From positions 930,001 to 994,000 of the forward strand of contig NZ_FPAP01000001.1 in assembly GCF_900116415.1 (NCBI RefSeq): a DNA stretch of 64,000 bases, given 5' to 3'. The first letter of the stretch is position 1, and every line of letters starts with the position of its first letter. The notes below the pieces were generated by a model. That model had not been told where the DNA came from. It ran no database searches and saw only the letters and a program-made list of their open reading frames with translations. The position numbers and the translations under genes were made by a program. Shown one piece after another: positions 30,238 through 37,579 of this stretch. This stretch comes from Chryseobacterium formosense (lineage in GTDB: Bacteria; Bacteroidota; Bacteroidia; Flavobacteriales; Weeksellaceae).

Positions 30238-30257
30238 AAACCTGCGAAAGCAGGTTT
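30238..30257. terminator. Bidirectional terminator between the M28 peptidase gene and hisIE
   Basis: AAACCTGC and GCAGGTTT form a perfect 8-bp stem with a GAAA tetraloop between converging genes. The right end touches the hisIE stop codon. Confidence 0.8.
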
Positions 30258-30846
30258 ATTTGTTTCTTTCCAAAAGGATTTTTTCAATATCTTCCAATGA
30301 AAAATTCTTAACTTTTAGTAAAATTAAATAATGATAAAGCAGATCTGCAGCTTCGTTTTTGAACAGGGTGTCGTTATGATCTTTAGCTTCAATTACCAAT
30401 TCTACAGCCTCTTCTCCTACTTTTTGAGCTACTTTATTGATCCCTTTTTGAAATAAAGAATAGGTATAAGAGTCTTCAATTTTTTCATCAATTCTCTGGC
30501 TGATCTTCGCTTCCAATTCATAAAGAAAACCTTTAGAATTTTTGTTTCCGAAGCAGCTGAAACTTCCGGTGTGACAAACTACATTTTCAGGAATGGCTTT
30601 GATTAAAATGGTATCCTGGTCACAATCTATATCAATGCTTTTTACCATTAAAAAGTTTCCTGATTCTTCTCCTTTTGTCCAAAGTCTGTTCTTTGAACGA
30701 CTGAAAAAGGTGACAATTCCTTCATTTTTTGTTTTTTCAAAGGCTTCCTCATTCATATACCCCAACATAAGAACTTGCAACGTTCTGTTATCTTGAATAA
30801 TTACAGGAACTAAACCGTCATTATTTTTATTAAAATTAATTTTCAT
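30256..30846 (-). CDS. hisIE: Bifunctional phosphoribosyl-AMP cyclohydrolase / phosphoribosyl-ATP pyrophosphatase
   Basis: This 196-residue fusion catalyses the second and third steps of histidine synthesis. The HisI half (1-105) has [16 protein letters not shown], the metal site DIDCDQD and the [10 protein letters not shown] block. The HisE half has the helical [34 protein letters not shown]. It is the last gene of the leftward his operon, and its start codon overlaps the hisF stop by 4 bases. Confidence 0.97.
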
Positions 30847-31595
30847 CGTATGACTATTTTTTTAGATTTTAATTCATTTTTTAAATCATGAATTTTAACT
30901 TCTTGAAAATGAAAAACACTTGCTGCTAAAGCTCCTGTTGCTTTTGTCTGATTAAAAACTTCTTCAAAATCTTCAATATTTCCGGCTCCACCAGAAGCAA
31001 TTACAGGAATATTTATGTTTTCAGAAATTAATTTGGTTATTCTCAGATCAAAACCATTTTTTGTTCCGTCTCCGTCCATTGAAGTCAGGAGAATTTCTCC
31101 GGCTCCCAATTCTTCTGCTTTTTTTGCCCAATCTAAAGTTTTTAAGTGGGTAATTTCTCTTCCTCCTTTTATATGAACCCAATCAGATTCATTTACAAAT
31201 CTTGTATCAATGGCAACAACAATACATTGGCTTCCAAATTCTTTAGCTAAATCAGAAATCAACTGAGGATTTTTAACCGCAGACGAATTAATACTGATTT
31301 TATCCGCTCCGGCTTCCAACAATTTTCTCACATCTTCAATCGTTGAAATTCCGCCACCTACAGTGAAAGGAATGCTGATTTCATTTGCAATTTCTTTCAC
31401 TAATTCAACAAATGTTTTTCGTTCTTCAATCGTGGCGGTAATGTCAAGAAAAACCAATTCATCAGCACCTTCTTCTTCATATCTTTTTGCCAGTTCTATT
31501 GGATTGCCTGCATTTCGAAGCCCTTCAAAATTGATTCCTTTTACTGTTGTTCCATTTTTTATATCCAGACAAGGGATGATTCTTTTTTTTAACAT
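30843..31595 (-). CDS. hisF: Imidazole glycerol phosphate synthase, cyclase subunit
   Basis: This (beta/alpha)8 barrel of about 250 residues closes the imidazole ring with ammonia supplied by His[24 protein letters not shown] is the family start, with the catalytic Asp in [13 protein letters not shown] carries the second catalytic Asp, and [28 protein letters not shown] and VIASGGAGN form the phosphate sites. A start two codons upstream (31601) is equally possible. A structured 148-base spacer separates it from hisA upstream. Confidence 0.96.
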
Positions 31596-31601
31596 GCTCA
31601 T

Positions 31602-31749
31602 TAAATTTTTTGATAGGATTTTATCCTATCCTTTAGAAAATCGTCCCTTCGGGACTCACAGAAAATTTTTGATTTTCTAAACTTATGTGCTCTTTTATAA
31701 AGAGAATTATTAAAACTCTTCTGTGACTTATGTGTTAAAACTTTTGTGG
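31602..31749. other. Hairpin-rich spacer between hisA and hisF
   Basis: The spacer interrupts an otherwise tightly packed operon. It contains GATAGGAT-TTT-ATCCTATC and a GTCCC-TTCG-GGAC hairpin with a UUCG-type loop. AGAAAATC and GATTTTCT also appear as complementary segments. It may be a processing site or an inserted repeat. Confidence 0.5.
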
Positions 31750-32463
31750 TTAAACAAAATTCCGTAATTCTTTCAATTCAATTTTCCCCTCATAGATAGC
31801 TTTTCCGATAATCGTTCCCGAGCAACCAATCTCTTTCATCTTGCATATATCTTCCATGCATGAAATTCCGCCACTTGCAACGAGTTGAATGGAGGTTTGG
31901 CTTAAGATATCTTTATATAAATCGGTTGAAGGTCCTTCCAGCATTCCGTCTTTTGAAATATCGGTGCAGATTACATTTTTAATTCCTTTTTCCTGATATT
32001 GAATAATAAAATCAATGACATCCTGATTACTTTCTTCCAACCAACCTGAAGTTTTTATTTTTCTATTATCACAGTCAGCTCCTAGAATAATTTTTTCTGA
32101 GCCATATTTTTCAATGAGATCAAAACAAAACTCAGGATTTTGAACAGCAATACTTCCAATTGTAATTTGTTTCGCTCCGGAATTAAAAGCAATTTCAATA
32201 TCCTGTAATGTTTTTAATCCGCCTCCGAAATCAATTTGTAAAGAGGTTTCTTTTGCAATATTTTCCAACACTTTTTGATTGACAATATGCTTGGATTTCG
32301 CACCATCTAAATCAACTAAATGCAGAAATCGGATTCCAAAACTCTCAAACTCTTTGGCAACTTCAACAGGATTTTCGTTGTAAATTTTCTTCGTTCCATA
32401 ATCACCTTTAGACAGACGAACACATTTTCCATCAATAATATCAATCGCAGGGATAATTTTCAT
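31750..32463 (-). CDS. hisA: ProFAR isomerase
   Basis: This 237-residue (beta/alpha)8 barrel isomerises ProFAR to PRFAR in histidine synthesis. It begins [22 protein letters not shown], with catalytic Asp8, and has [32 protein letters not shown] and the second catalytic Asp in [16 protein letters not shown]. The phosphate-binding [13 protein letters not shown] follows. It starts 2 bases after the hisH stop codon. Confidence 0.97.
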
Positions 32464-32465
32464 GC

Positions 32466-33044
32466 TTACAATTTTAAAAAGTTATTTAATAATTGACTTC
32501 CGATTTTTCCTGATTTTTCTGGGTGAAACTGCATCGCATAAAAATTGTCTTTTTTCAAGGATGCACTGAAAGGTAAAATATAATCACAAACAGAAGTTGT
32601 ACTCTCGGATAATTCGCAATAATAGCTATGAACAAAGTATAGGTCGCTCTCTTCTTCAATTTCTGAAAACAGATAAGATTTAAAATCTGAAATCGTATTC
32701 CAACCCATATGCGGAACAATATCTTTTGCTGGAAATCTCTTGACATTAATATCGAAAATTCCCATTCCGACTGTATTTCCTTCTTCGTTGTTTTTACACA
32801 TCAATTGCATTCCCAGACAAATTCCCAAAACAGGCTGTTTTAAAGTTGGAATTAATCGATCCAAGCCTTTTTCTTTTAAGTTTTTCATGGTAGAAGACGC
32901 TTCTCCAACTCCCGGAAAAATAACTTTATCTGCCTTTTGAATGATTTCAAAATCATCAGTAATTATTGAGTTTACATTCAATCTCTTCAATGCATTTTGG
33001 ACGGAATTGACGTTTCCCCCGTTGTATTTTATAATGGCAATCAT
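32466..33044 (-). CDS. hisH: Imidazole glycerol phosphate synthase, glutaminase subunit
   Basis: This 192-residue class I glutamine amidotransferase supplies ammonia to HisF. The catalytic triad is visible: the Cys in [11 protein letters not shown], and His and Glu in [12 protein letters not shown]. The oxyanion-strand sequence FPGVGEAS is present near residue 45. It lies 1 base from hisB and 2 bases from hisA. Confidence 0.97.
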
Positions 33045-33045
33045 T

Positions 33046-34140
33046 TTACAAGCTTCCTTTGGTTGACGGTAAATTAAAATTCTGATCTGATTGGTTAACT
33101 GCCATTTTTATAGCTTTTGCAAAAGCTTTAAAAATAGATTCAATCTTGTGATGTTCATTTTCTCCTTCTGCTTTAATATTGACATTACATTTAGCTGAAT
33201 CTGTGAACGACTTAAAGAAATGTTCAAACATTTCGGTAGGAACATCACCAACTTTTTCACGTTTTAAATTTGCATCCCAAACCAACCAAGCACGTCCTCC
33301 AAAATCGATGGCAACCTGTGCCAAGCAATCGTCCATCGGAAGCAGAAAACCATATCTTTCAATTCCTTTTTTCTTTCCTAAAGCTTTCGAAATAGCTTCT
33401 CCTAAGACAATTCCTGTGTCTTCAATCGTGTGGTGCTCATCAACATGCAGATCTCCATTTGCTTTGATTTTTAAATCTAAATTCCCGTGTTTGGAAATCT
33501 GTTCAAGCATATGATCAAAAAAATGTAATCCGGTTGAAATATCAGAATTTCCGCTTCCGTCAAGATTGACTTCAATTTCGATGTCCGTTTCATTTGTTTT
33601 TCTTGAAACCTTAGCTTTTCGTGGAATATCCTTTAAATATTGATAGATTTCATTCCAATTTTCTGTTGTCAGCTCTGCATCATCATTCTGAATTGGATTA
33701 ATGAAAATCGCTTTTGACTTTAAATTTTTTGCGAGTTGAATATCAGTCAGTCGATCTCCGATGACGAAAGAATTTTCAAGATCATAATCTCCGTAAATAT
33801 ATTTTCCCAACATTCCGATTTCTGGCTTTCTTGTCGGTAAATTCTCATATTCAAAACTTTTATCAATCAAAATATCATTGAAAACAATACCTTCATTTTT
33901 AAATGCATGCAACATCTTTTCATGAGGCTTTATAAAATTTTCATAAGGAAAGTTTTCAGTTCCCAAACCATCCTGATTGGTGACCATGACCAGTTTAAAA
34001 TCTAGTTCTTTAGCAATTTTCGAGAGGTTTTGAAAGACTCCGGGATAGAATTCAAGTTTTTCCAAAGAGTCCACCTGAAAATCCGTTGGTGGTTCTGTAA
34101 TTAAAGTTCCGTCGCGGTCTATAAACAATACTTTTTTCAT
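33046..34140 (-). CDS. hisB: Bifunctional histidinol-phosphatase / imidazoleglycerol-phosphate dehydratase
   Basis: This 364-residue fusion carries out two steps of histidine synthesis. The N-terminal HAD phosphatase has the DxD motif [13 protein letters not shown] (Asp8, Asp10), [10 protein letters not shown] and [15 protein letters not shown]. The C-terminal dehydratase (from about residue 170) has the metal sites [34 protein letters not shown] and [18 protein letters not shown]. The fusion is the gamma-proteobacterial/Bacteroidota form and is not an assembly error. Confidence 0.97.
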
Positions 34141-34183
34141 TTCTAAACAATTGTTAATCTGTTATTTTTCTGCTTGCTCAAAC

Positions 34184-35218
34184 CTATATGGTTTTGCATT
34201 GTTTTAAAACTTTGATTAATTGGGTATTTTCTTCTCTATTTCCTACATTAATTCTGATACAGTTTGGAATTTGTGGACTTCTTTTGCTGGTCAGAATTTC
34301 GTTTTCCAATAACTTTTTATATACTTTTTCCACATTTTCAAATTCGATCAGAAAGAAATTAGCATGAGTTGAATATACTTTCTGAACACAATTTATCGCT
34401 TCAAATTCATTTTTGAGCCAGGAAATTTCAATTAAAGTATTTTCTATATTGTTTTTTGTAACTTCTTGTTTTGTAATTGTTTCAATTATTTTATTTAAAC
34501 TTAAAGCATTAACATTGTAAGGTGATTTCACTGTATTTATCAGCTTAATGATTTCCTTAGAGGAATACGCAATACCTACTCTCGCTCCTGCCATTCCCCA
34601 AGCTTTTGAAAATGTTTGAAGAACAATCAGGTTGGGATATTTCTCCAATAATTCAGTACAGGATTTTTTTCCTGAGAATTCTATGTACGCTTCATCAACA
34701 ACAACAATTCCATTAAAATTTTTAATATAAAATTCAACGTCTTCTATAACGTTTCCGGTTGGATTATTGGGTGAGCATAAGAAAAAAACTTTAGGCTTAA
34801 ATCCTGCTGAAATTTTAAGAAAATCATTTTTTACAATCTCGAAGTTTTCGTTTAAATCAAGTTTTATCACCTTATTTTCATTGATAGAAGCATAAAAACC
34901 ATACATTGCAAATGAAGGGTTCATTATTAAAATGGAGTCTTTTTTAGGCTCACAAAAAATCTTTACAATCAAATCAATCAATTCGTCACTGCCATTTCCG
35001 ACTGCAATCTGATCTGTTGAGATATTCTTTATTTCAGAAAGCTTTTGCTTTAATTCTTTCTGCGTAGAATCAGGATAACGGTTCAGTTCTCCAAACGGAC
35101 TTTCATTGGCATCCAGCAAAACAGGATTTTTAAATTCATTATGATCTCTAAAACTGATGTAAGGCTGCAGTTCTAAGATATTTTTTCTTACTAAACTATT
35201 GATATTAAATTCTTTCAT
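34184..35218 (-). CDS. hisC: Histidinol-phosphate aminotransferase
   Basis: This 344-residue PLP enzyme of fold type I converts imidazole-acetol phosphate to histidinol phosphate. DANESPFGELNRYPD is the family N-terminal block. CSPNNPTGN, VVDEAYIEFSG and LQTFSKAWGMAGARVG carry the PLP-binding Asn and Asp and the Schiff-base Lys. Its first 14 bases overlap the end of hisD, so translation is coupled. Confidence 0.96.
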   Translation of the reverse strand: MKEFNINSLVRKNILELQPYISFRDHNEFKNPVLLDANESPFGELNRYPDSTQKELKQKLSEIKNISTDQIAVGNGSDELIDLIVKIFCEPKKDSILIMNPSFAMYGFYASINENKVIKLDLNENFEIVKNDFLKISAGFKPKVFFLCSPNNPTGNVIEDVEFYIKNFNGIVVVDEAYIEFSGKKSCTELLEKYPNLIVLQTFSKAWGMAGARVGIAYSSKEIIKLINTVKSPYNVNALSLNKIIETITKQEVTKNNIENTLIEISWLKNEFEAINCVQKVYSTHANFFLIEFENVEKVYKKLLENEILTSKRSPQIPNCIRINVGNREENTQLIKVLKQCKTI

Positions 35219-36497
35219 TTTCTTGTTTTAATCTGACACTTACGGCATTTTTGTGTGCAAATAATCCTTCTGCTTCTGCCATGATTTCTATTGTTTTTCC
35301 TAAATTTTGAAGTCCTTTTTGGGATAGATTCTGAAATGTGATTTTCTTCACAAAGCTATCTAAGGAAACTCCACTATAATTTTTTGCAAAACCGTTTGTC
35401 GGAAGGGTGTGATTGGTTCCGCTTGCGTAATCTCCCGCACTTTCACAAGAGTAATTTCCAAGGAAAACCGAGCCTGCATTTCGAATTTTTGGAATGTAAT
35501 TTTCAAAGTCTTCCATAGCTAAAATCAAATGTTCGGGAGCGTATAAATTGCTGAATTCTAAAGCTTCATCGATCGTATTTAGCAAAATAAAATGGCTGTT
35601 TTCTAAAGCTTCTTTTGCCAATTCATTTCTGGGAAGTACTTTAAGCTGTTTTTCCGTTTCTTCAATGGTTTTATTAAAAATTGTTTCATCTGTTGACAGG
35701 AAAATAACCTGACTGTCACTTCCGTGCTCTGCCTGAGAAAGCAGATCTGCCGCACAGAACTCAGGAATGGCTTTTTCATCTGCAATGATTAGTACTTCAC
35801 TTGGTCCGGCCGGCATATCAATGGCAACGTTATAATTTTGAGCAAATTCTTTTGCTGCGACAACATACTGATTTCCTGGTCCAAAAATTTTATAGACATT
35901 GGGAATACTTTCCGTTCCTAAAGTCATTGCTGCAACCGCTTGTGCTCCACCTGTTTTAAATATTTCAGTGATTTCACAAAGTTTTGCAGTATACAGAATG
36001 GCTGGATTGATATTTCCATTTTTATCAGGTGGTGTACACAATATAATTTCTTTACAACCAACTAATTGAGCAGGAATGGCAAGCATTAAAACCGTTGAAA
36101 ATAAAGGCGCAGTTCCTCCCGGAATATAAATTCCTACTTTTTCGATTGCTCGATTTTCTCTCCAACAGACAACTCCTTTTGTAGTTTCAATTTTTTCTGT
36201 TTCAGTAATTTGTGAAGCATGAAATTTTGTAATATTATTTTTTGCCTGTTGAATAGCGTCTTTTAATTCATTACTGATTAAGCTTTCTACATTTTCTATT
36301 TCTTTTTCGGAAACTTTAATACTTTTAATTTCAACTCCATCGAACTTTTTATTTAAGTCTAATAAAGCCTGATTGCCATTTCTTTCAACTTCTTTAAAAA
36401 TATCAGCAATCAATTCTGTCAATTTTTCTCTTTGTAAAACAGGTCTTTTCACTAATTCCGGCCAAGCTTCTCTTTGAGGATATTTATTAATTTTCAT
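35205..36497 (-). CDS. hisD: Histidinol dehydrogenase
   Basis: This 430-residue NAD- and zinc-dependent enzyme performs the last two oxidations to histidine. The family signature is intact (GTESIPNVYKIFGPGNQYVVAAK, then IDMPAGPSEVLIIADE and DLLSQAEHGSDSQVIFLS with the zinc-site Gln and His). The C-terminal YAPEHLILAMEDFE and NHTLPTNGFAKNYSGVS blocks are also present. It begins 1 base from hisG. Confidence 0.97.
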   Translation of the reverse strand: MKINKYPQREAWPELVKRPVLQREKLTELIADIFKEVERNGNQALLDLNKKFDGVEIKSIKVSEKEIENVESLISNELKDAIQQAKNNITKFHASQITETEKIETTKGVVCWRENRAIEKVGIYIPGGTAPLFSTVLMLAIPAQLVGCKEIILCTPPDKNGNINPAILYTAKLCEITEIFKTGGAQAVAAMTLGTESIPNVYKIFGPGNQYVVAAKEFAQNYNVAIDMPAGPSEVLIIADEKAIPEFCAADLLSQAEHGSDSQVIFLSTDETIFNKTIEETEKQLKVLPRNELAKEALENSHFILLNTIDEALEFSNLYAPEHLILAMEDFENYIPKIRNAGSVFLGNYSCESAGDYASGTNHTLPTNGFAKNYSGVSLDSFVKKITFQNLSQKGLQNLGKTIEIMAEAEGLFAHKNAVSVRLKQENERI

Positions 36498-36498
36498 A

Positions 36499-37356
36499 CT
36501 AAATCACCATTTTATCGATTGGAATTATCAAAATATCTTGTGCTCCTTTGTCTTTTAGCTCATCGATCACTTCCCAAAACCGTTCTTCATCAATCACAGA
36601 ATGAATACTGCTCCAGCCTTTTTCAGCTAAAGGAATTACAGTAGGACTTTTAAGAACGGGAAGGGTTTTTGAAATGAGATCAATTTTCTCATTCGGAACA
36701 TTCATCAGGATATATTTTGAATTTTTTGCTTTTAAAACCGCTTTAATTCTGAAAAGAAATTTTTCTAAAATGGATACTTTTTCCGCACTTAATTGTGATG
36801 TTTTTGCCAGTACAGCTTCCGATTTTAAAAGCGTTACTGTTTCTCGCAATCCGTTTTTAAATAAAGTGCTTCCTGAGCTTACAATATCACAGATTCCATC
36901 GGCTAGACCAATATTGGGAGCTATTTCAACCGAACCTGAAATCACGTGAATATCAGCCGAAATATTATTTTTCTCAAGAAAATTTTTAAGGGTATTTGGA
37001 TAAGATGTAGCAATCTTTTTTCCTCGAAAATACTTGATATCATCCGTTTCAATTTCTTTCGGAATGGCTAAGGAAACCCTGCATTTTGAGAAACCTAAAG
37101 GTTGGATAATTTCAATATTTTTTTGTTTTTCGACTAAAAGATTTTCGCCGACAATGGCAATATCCACCACTCCGTCTTCCAGATATTGAGGAATATCTGA
37201 ATTCCGTAAATACATGATTTCCATGGGGAAATTGTCTACAGAAACTTTAAGCTGATCTTTTCCGTTGTTGATGAAGATTCCGCAGTCTTTAAGGAGCTGA
37301 AGAGATTCTTCGTAAAGCCGTCCGCTTTTTTGTATCGCTATTTTTAATGTACTCAT
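36499..37356 (-). CDS. hisG: ATP phosphoribosyltransferase (long form)
   Basis: This 285-residue protein catalyses the first, committed step of histidine synthesis. The start MSTLKIAIQKSGRLYEESLQLL is the family N-terminus; the upstream Met at 37380 adds eight unmatched residues. DIAIVGENLL and ATSYPNTLKNFLEKN lie in the catalytic domains, and GICDIVSSGSTLFKNGL gives the PRPP-binding loop. The C-terminal 75 or so residues form the regulatory domain of the hexameric long form, so feedback inhibition by histidine is expected. It is the first structural gene after the attenuator at 37430-37553. Confidence 0.96.
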   Translation of the reverse strand: MSTLKIAIQKSGRLYEESLQLLKDCGIFINNGKDQLKVSVDNFPMEIMYLRNSDIPQYLEDGVVDIAIVGENLLVEKQKNIEIIQPLGFSKCRVSLAIPKEIETDDIKYFRGKKIATSYPNTLKNFLEKNNISADIHVISGSVEIAPNIGLADGICDIVSSGSTLFKNGLRETVTLLKSEAVLAKTSQLSAEKVSILEKFLFRIKAVLKAKNSKYILMNVPNEKIDLISKTLPVLKSPTVIPLAEKGWSSIHSVIDEERFWEVIDELKDKGAQDILIIPIDKMVI

Positions 37357-37429
37357 TTCACTTTTGTTGTGTCTGAGCAAATAAAAACGGTTGAATTGAA
37401 AAAATTTCCCGGGATAAATTTAGAAACAA

Positions 37430-37459
37430 AAAAACCGTCTATTTACTCAGACGGTTTTT
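37430..37459 (-). terminator. his operon attenuator terminator (segments 3 and 4)
   Basis: On the minus strand AAAAACCGTCT pairs with AGACGGTTTTT over 11 bp around an 8-base loop, followed by more T residues. It lies 74 bases upstream of hisG, inside the leader and not after a gene. Segment 3 (CCGTCT, 37435-37440) can instead pair with AGACGG at 37499-37504. Confidence 0.88.
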
Positions 37460-37489
37460 AATTATTTTGATTTTTAACATAGTCATATA

Positions 37490-37504
37490 TCAACAATTCC
37501 GTCT
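37490..37504 (-). promoter_or_regulatory. Antiterminator segment (segment 2) of the his leader
   Basis: On the minus strand AGACGG (37499-37504) overlaps the leader peptide stop codon and is complementary to CCGTCT in the terminator. The adjoining ATTGTTGA (37490-37497) is complementary to TCAACAAT at the leader start (37552-37559). The same segment can therefore form two alternative helices. Confidence 0.78.
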
Positions 37505-37553
37505 AGCAGAGATGATGATAATAATGATGTACTGTTAAAAAATTCGGTTTCAT
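37503..37553 (-). CDS. Histidine-rich leader peptide of the his operon (hisL-like)
   Basis: This 16-codon frame reads MKPNFLTVHHYYHHLC and stops at TAG. Four of its codons are CAT for His, at positions 9, 10, 13 and 14. It starts about 20 bases after the promoter box and lies directly upstream of the hisGDCBHAFIE operon and its leader terminator. Its role is regulatory: ribosomes stalled at the His codons when charged tRNA-His is scarce should leave segment 2 free to block the terminator. The two adjacent Tyr codons are unusual for a his leader. It is too short for ordinary gene calling. No homology search was possible, so the call rests on position, codon content and RNA complementarity. Confidence 0.85.
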   Translation of the reverse strand: MKPNFLTVHHYYHHLC

Positions 37554-37571
37554 TGTTGAAATTTTGTGGTA

Positions 37572-37579
37572 CAAATGTA
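37572..37579 (-). promoter_or_regulatory. -7 box of the his operon promoter
   Basis: TACATTTG on the minus strand matches TAnnTTTG, with a TTG 19 bases upstream. It places the transcript start about ten bases before the leader peptide ATG, as expected for an attenuated operon. Confidence 0.68.

Follow-up and report, generated by a model that had tools for sequence, protein, structure and literature searches.

The window, by which we mean the whole 64,000-nucleotide stretch of DNA that was analysed, carries a his operon on its minus strand. The first gene of the operon, hisG (36499-37356, minus strand, ATG at 37356), was identified as an open reading frame and with the profile TIGR00070, and it is the sole operon gene that was tested by profile. 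The remaining open reading frames of the operon (30256-36497, minus strand) are presumably hisD, hisC, hisB, hisH, hisA, hisF and hisIE, names that we recognised from their translations. The closest named relatives belong to Chryseobacterium, in which 80 hisG loci are 83-96% identical. Upstream of hisG and on the same strand lie a -7 promoter box of the Bacteroidota type (TACATTTG, 37572-37579), a leader open reading frame of 16 codons followed by TAG (MKPNFLTVHHYYHHLC, 37503-37553), and an intrinsic terminator hairpin with the start of a T-run (37430-37459; stem AAAAACCGTCT/AGACGGTTTTT, segments 3 and 4), the end of which at 37430 is 74 nt from the hisG ATG. The original prediction, made from the letters of the window, had described a TAnnTTTG box, a leader with four His codons and an 11-bp terminator with a T-run 74 bases ahead of hisG, and direct reading located each of these. 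Across the order, 176 of 192 loci have a TAnnTTTG box no more than 70 nt from the ATG of the leader.

The leader stands out within the window. The window has 1095 ATG-initiated micro-ORFs of 5-40 codons, counting both strands, and no other contains four or more His codons within eight codons; in the leader these are codons 9 and 10 together with codons 13 and 14 (37512-37517, minus strand). Folding of the leader RNA, which the original prediction had suggested as a check, gave -30.8 kcal/mol for leader plus terminator (37430-37567) against -16.7 +/- 3.1 kcal/mol for shuffled sequences (z = -4.57), with 0 of 200 shuffles folding as well.

Retention of the His codons in relatives, another check named at the outset, was also borne out. 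Of the named genus loci, the 79 whose contigs extend far enough upstream all have the leader (L067, whose contig begins 99 nt before hisG, is omitted from this count), and leader plus terminator occur in 94/94 genus loci, the window included, 86 of which are distinct. The His run opens with HHY in 93 of the 94. Leader and terminator are likewise found in 59 of 60 other loci of the family, a sample that covers 60 of the 62 non-genus genomes with hisG and leaves out two in which hisG is split, and in 42 of 61 other loci of the order, a sample formed by the 44 of 46 non-f15 genomes and 17 of 29 genomes of family f15 with a hisG match. Seventeen of the 19 misses are 0.6-Mb genomes of family f15 (L156-L161, L163, L164, L166, L168-L174 and L176), which are probably endosymbionts, judging from their size; they keep hisG with no His leader before it, as if His control had been lost. 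The other two misses, L238 and L241, may have a misassigned hisG start. Every leader-bearing locus of the order has a terminator (195/195), and the order contributes 185 distinct leader-terminator sequences. The sample from outside the order comprised 50 of 120 loci, of which 12 without a hisG start were left out; in the 38 that remain, a few of whose starts look misassigned, a His-rich leader was found in 28, compared to a shuffle mean of 1.2, and 20 have a terminator as well by the criteria used here. Given these 28 loci and the counts within the order, His leaders are common in Bacteroidota.

Several further traits of the leaders were noted along the way. Four genus loci (L017, L042, L043 and L072) have lost the usual stop codon of the leader, and their frame extends 4-6 codons over the adjoining RNA segment (segment 2), with the ends LCQDGTD, LCKDGID, LCQDGY and LCPDGIDW, respectively. 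Leader His codons are CAT rather than CAC in 847:53 cases (94%; 192 order loci, genomes not deduplicated), while the ratio is 41:16 (72%) in twelve open reading frames around the his operon of the window. A Tyr codon breaks the His run in 93/94 genus leaders. Queuosine-type tRNAs decode His as well as Tyr codons, and tRNA modification might also be sensed by a leader composed in this way.

The antiterminator arm, segment 2, is AGACGG (37499-37504, minus strand) and overlaps the leader stop codon. As the original prediction had proposed, it is complementary to CCGTCT within the terminator (37449-37454, minus strand). In the 42 genus sequences aligned for row-based pairing and identity counts, the pairs between segment 2 and segment 3 are intact in 42/42 rows, and the only changes are from A-U to G-U. 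Counted from the first clustered His codon, segment 2 follows at a narrowly distributed distance, with a median of 23 nt (quartiles 21-25, range 16-47; 192 loci).

For the state before translation, a helix between TCAACAAT (37559-37552) and ATTGTTGA (37497-37490) had been proposed to sequester segment 2. Both arms are present, but their pairing is no better than in shuffles: with bulges disallowed, 84.5% of cells are paired over the 42 genus rows, with no two-sided change, and by eye some of the failing rows could re-pair with a bulge. The minimum-energy fold instead contains a hairpin in which codons 5-7 (segment 1, 37533-37541, minus strand) form the 5′ arm and TGTTAAAAA (37471-37479, minus strand) the 3′ arm, for which 91.2% of cells are paired over the same 42 rows. 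One pair of this helix changes from A-U to G-C in seven rows, exceeding all 500 shuffles; the seven rows are alike and perhaps stem from one event, so that the alignment would lend the helix modest support. The hairpin encloses the His codons and segment 2, the CGG of which is paired in the minimum-energy fold. As the TCAACAAT:ATTGTTGA helix was the weaker of the two in the pairing test, it was set aside, and codons 5-7 with 37471-37479 more likely form the pre-translation hairpin.

From this anatomy and its conservation, a sequence of ribosome-dependent steps can be proposed. When charged His-tRNA is short, a ribosome would stall at His codons 9 and 10 (37524-37529, minus strand) and leave segment 2 free, and free segment 2 would pair with segment 3 so that no terminator forms. 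A ribosome that reaches the stop codon would cover segment 2, and the terminator (segments 3 and 4) would form. Without translation, the hairpin of codons 5-7 with 37471-37479 would enclose segment 2. Footprint arithmetic agrees with this scheme, in that a ribosome at codon 9 or 10 should free segment 2, one at codon 14 should cover part of it and one at the stop codon should cover all of it. The locus combines a His-rich leader open reading frame, an intrinsic terminator between leader and hisG, and a mutually exclusive antiterminator that the stalled ribosome would presumably leave free. Because leader and terminator accompany all 94 genus hisG loci read and His-rich leaders precede hisG phylum-wide, it is very likely a ribosome-mediated transcription attenuator of the his operon. 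The pairing of segments 2 and 3, the narrow spacing between His codons and segment 2, and the Rfam His_leader model as the best sub-threshold match all support this reading, which was also that of the original prediction.

The elements listed in that prediction all lie where it placed them, but its anatomy was incomplete, as it missed a third sequence with which the terminator arm and loop can pair. Segment 3 and the loop together form a hub (CCGTCTGAGTAAA, 37442-37454, minus strand) with three alternative partners and a genus column identity of 0.99 (42 rows). Its portion GTCTGAGTAAA (37452-37442), which spans the upper terminator arm and the loop, is complementary to TTTGCTCAGAC (37381-37371, minus strand), a stretch that we call segment 5 and that ends 14 bases upstream of the hisG ATG. 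It was recognised through a helix search and covariation. For each locus, the best helix that the terminator arm and loop can form with the sequence between terminator and ATG was compared to 500 dinucleotide shuffles of that sequence. Among loci with leader and terminator, the helix of hub and segment 5 (hub:5) was found at p <= 0.05 in 94/94 genus loci, 51/59 other family loci and 28/42 other order loci, and in 0/20 loci outside the order. Counted by distinct sequences, the values are 86/86, 49/57, 28/42 and 0/20, or 163/185 within the order; 22 of the 101 other family and order loci are without a significant hub:5 helix.

Segment 5 lies 13-19 bases from the ATG in the genus and 14-34 in other order loci, and since this gap is at least 13 bases in all loci with hub:5, the helix touches only the edge of the initiation region. 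The distance from terminator to segment 5 averages 46 nt in the genus and 23 and 19 nt elsewhere. The standard deviations of the spacing to the ATG and to the terminator are 1.3 vs 1.9 in the genus, 3.3 vs 7.5 in the family and 6.2 vs 4.1 in other order loci. Within the 42 genus rows, segment 5 has an identity of 0.92, compared to about 0.70 on either flank. Segments 2 and 5 draw on shared hub bases, at least 3 nt of them in 171 of 173 loci, so the two pairings compete (three order loci without hub:5, L153, L154 and L155, are left out of, or have no effect on, the 192- and 173-locus sets). Many genus rows show by eye a CCCGGG- or CCTCAG-like patch in the interval that separates the terminator from segment 5 (37383-37430, minus strand), and this patch could form a small hairpin that brings segment 5 near the hub.

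Across genera, the two arms of hub:5 change together. In L210 GTTTGAGTACA changes with TGTACTCAAAC, in L213 GTTTGAGCACA with TGTGCTCAAAC, in L237 GTCTGAATAAA with TTTATTCAGAC, in L242 GCCTGAGAAA with TTTCTCAGGC, in L123 GCCTTGAGTTTT with AAAACTCAAGGC, and in L240, of family f4, TGCCGAAGTGTTT with AAACACTTAGGCA. An anchored set was formed by dropping 21 of the 192 loci, 19 with p > 0.05 in addition to L102 and L240, which have no TGA anchor in the hub. In its 95 distinct sequences, 169 column pairs were ranked by corrected mutual information, and the first five are all true helix partners, with values of 0.372 to 0.168 compared to 0.147 for the best non-partner; as off-diagonal pairs share the same ancestry, they serve as a partial control for relatedness. 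In the genus alone, hub:5 is 99.3% paired, compared to 9-45% when the arms are slid, and all changes are one-sided, so the two-sided evidence comes from the comparison between genera.

The mismatches in the helix provide additional evidence. When G.U and A.C were penalised equally, unfiltered helices contained 93 G.U, 5 A.C and 22 other mismatches (184 distinct Flavobacteriales cases), or 32, 5 and 18, respectively, in 82 distinct helix strings. The anchored set has 68 G.U and 1 A.C, and a filtered set, with a score that favours G.U, has 90 G.U, 0 A.C and 12 other mismatches in 162 distinct helices. In the three bases flanking the filtered helices A.C prevails over G.U (99 vs 42), and outside the order, where a helix is not expected, equal-penalty helices show 1 G.U, 6 A.C and 4 other (19 cases). 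As G.U pairs exist only in RNA of the his strand, selection has acted on the his mRNA and not on DNA. Covariation and the G.U excess show hub:5 to be a helix formed in his mRNA.

Two accounts that would assign no RNA function to hub:5 can be weighed directly against these data. One is that a transcription factor binds the hub and segment 5 as an inverted repeat in the DNA: the window does have two complementary arms downstream of the promoter, separated by about 60 bp, and other phyla do have His repressors (HisR; PMC9413887). A DNA repeat would have no strand preference, though, and the strand asymmetry, seen in the unfiltered and the anchored sets and absent outside the order, led us to reject it; its arms would moreover have to tolerate the variable spacing described above, and we regard it as extremely unlikely. 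It could also be that segments 1 to 4 suffice and the complementarity of hub and segment 5 is accidental or a relic. The classical parts are indeed sufficient for attenuation, hub:5 is rare at equilibrium in folding, and about a fifth of the other family and order loci do without it, yet an accident or relic sits poorly with covariation on the helix diagonal, with G.U far above A.C and with conservation of segment 5 above its flanks, which makes this account very improbable. A his attenuator with hub:5 as a third partner in Flavobacteriales is, taken as a whole, the explanation in which we have high confidence.

What the helix does is a separate matter. Segment 5 is made only after the polymerase has passed the terminator, so it can have no effect on the termination of its own transcript, and any action of hub:5 has to follow the choice between termination and read-through. 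Where segment 2 does not occupy the hub of a read-through RNA, the hub would pair with segment 5 upstream of the start codon; under starvation, the helix of segments 2 and 3 would keep the hub apart from segment 5. The same hub may in this way tune the translation of hisG via segment 5, which we rank as the most likely use while holding it at somewhat less than even confidence. More tentative still is the full picture of a three-partner attenuator in a group without Shine-Dalgarno sequences, in which the hub would set termination through segments 2 or 4 and then hisG translation through segment 5, possibly acting in trans as well. Start regions in F. johnsoniae have little structure between -20 and +20, with bS1 at -12 to -15 (PMC6847099).

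Equilibrium folding was applied to 102 distinct loci with the helix, the genus being thinned to every fourth locus. In pseudoknot-free folds of these read-through leaders, the terminator stem has a median of 0.94 and hub:5 exceeds 0.5 in 4%. The leader of the window itself is an exception, with hub:5 at 0.99 when the ribosome is at the stop codon and at 0.40 when it is stalled. Between the stalled state with segments 2 and 3 paired and a ribosome that has reached the stop codon, accessibility of the start region did not differ (higher in 46/102, p 0.65). Folding had been expected to show an opening of the start region in the stalled state and did not do so in these 102 loci, which speaks against a translational lock.

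These folds bear on a further explanation, that hub:5 governs processing or stability of the read-through his mRNA, as it could by eliminating the terminator hairpin or creating a cleavage site. The unchanged modelled accessibility would suit such a role, as would a helix that can act only after read-through and that stays at least 13 bases from the ATG; the tighter spacing to the ATG than to the terminator points the other way in genus and family, and not in the other order loci. We consider processing unlikely, while giving it more weight than the remaining alternative, action in trans by the terminated leader RNA, with the hub of that RNA pairing with segment 5 of the his mRNA. The RNA of the Sinorhizobium trp attenuator is said to act in trans. 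The released leader contains the hub, and the Sinorhizobium trp leader peptide peTrpL has been reported as trans-acting (PMC7298713); against this, the cis copy is always nearer and the released RNA holds the hub inside the terminator stem, so action in trans seems quite doubtful. Tuning of hisG translation is the use of hub:5 that we favour over both.

The attenuator part of this locus, very likely real, is not new in kind, and the original prediction overstated its novelty in suggesting that his leaders are described mainly from gammaproteobacteria, as accounts from Flavobacteriaceae (PMC9723704) and Firmicutes (PMC9413887) exist. The hub:5 helix of the order appears to be a new feature, and no description of a third partner was found in the open-licence literature searched. 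The results place His leaders widely in Bacteroidota, a phylum with little-studied operon control, and the 185 distinct leader-terminator sequences of the order could be used for a covariance model, as the Rfam His_leader model misses those tested. Hub:5 provides a strong covariation signal with a putative translational role; should it control initiation, the position of a single ribosome on one leader would determine both transcription and translation.

Attenuators are reportedly among the predictions made for Bacteroidetes/Chlorobi by Vitreschak and colleagues (2004). One precedent is a 2021 report on Flavobacterium psychrophilum and its family (PMC9723704), which gives strong clues that amino acid operons are attenuated through leader peptides and describes a structured 5′ element ahead of hisG in F. 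psychrophilum and other Flavobacteriaceae. That element concerns the same gene in the same bacterial group, with attenuation proposed and no Rfam match; its description in the main text is without segments or a partner before hisG, and overlap with segment 5 is possible. The his genes of Bacteroidota are also treated in PMC8305728, in which the word "leader" is absent. His attenuators of Firmicutes have 3-5 His codons in a row with a terminator and an antiterminator, as here, but they belong to another phylum and the accessible text does not mention a third partner; some attenuators have, in place of the terminator, a structure closing a ribosome binding site (PMC9413887). The actinobacterial LEU element resembles the present locus in having a leader peptide and long-range pairing to the start region of leuA, and differs in that its run of Leu codons pairs with the Shine-Dalgarno box, no terminator is given in the accessible part of the paper, and its authors favour a regulatory protein (PMC1262725).

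Within the genus, the trp operon offers a comparison. A WWW leader (e.g., MIISNNKNWWWLSNSSSGLKLLSCC) and a terminator precede trpE in all eight genus genomes searched (L274-L281), comparable to the Bacteroid-trp family (RF01692), and these attenuators differ in being without hub:5, a similar helix being found in 0/8 at p <= 0.05 (lowest p 0.09). Neither of two genus trp loci scanned had an Rfam match at gathering level, RF01692 included, and this family has no match in the window nor any among the 28 sub-threshold matches of the his leader. No attenuator was seen by eye in the upstream regions of genus ilvD and pheA; six of the eight genus genomes searched have an ilvD match, the genome of the window (G000) being one of those without.

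Finally, we compared the locus to enterobacterial hisL (RF00514). At gathering level, Rfam matches in the window are limited to a tRNA, and RF00514 matches neither the window nor nine other his loci scanned. The His_leader model, a search suggested by the original prediction, is the best sub-threshold match, at 29.4 bits against a gathering threshold of 49 (E 0.0045 for 301 bases), which stops short of membership. The genus leaders differ from hisL in the Tyr that interrupts their His run, and the E. coli his locus is without the hub:5 helix (p 0.84). Common to both are a His-rich leader of 16 codons (MTRVQFKHHHHHHHPD in E. coli) and a terminator between leader and hisG. The E. coli his leader forms alternative helices, as proposed for this leader. 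With a score below the threshold of His_leader, the leader described here would work like hisL while standing outside the curated family.
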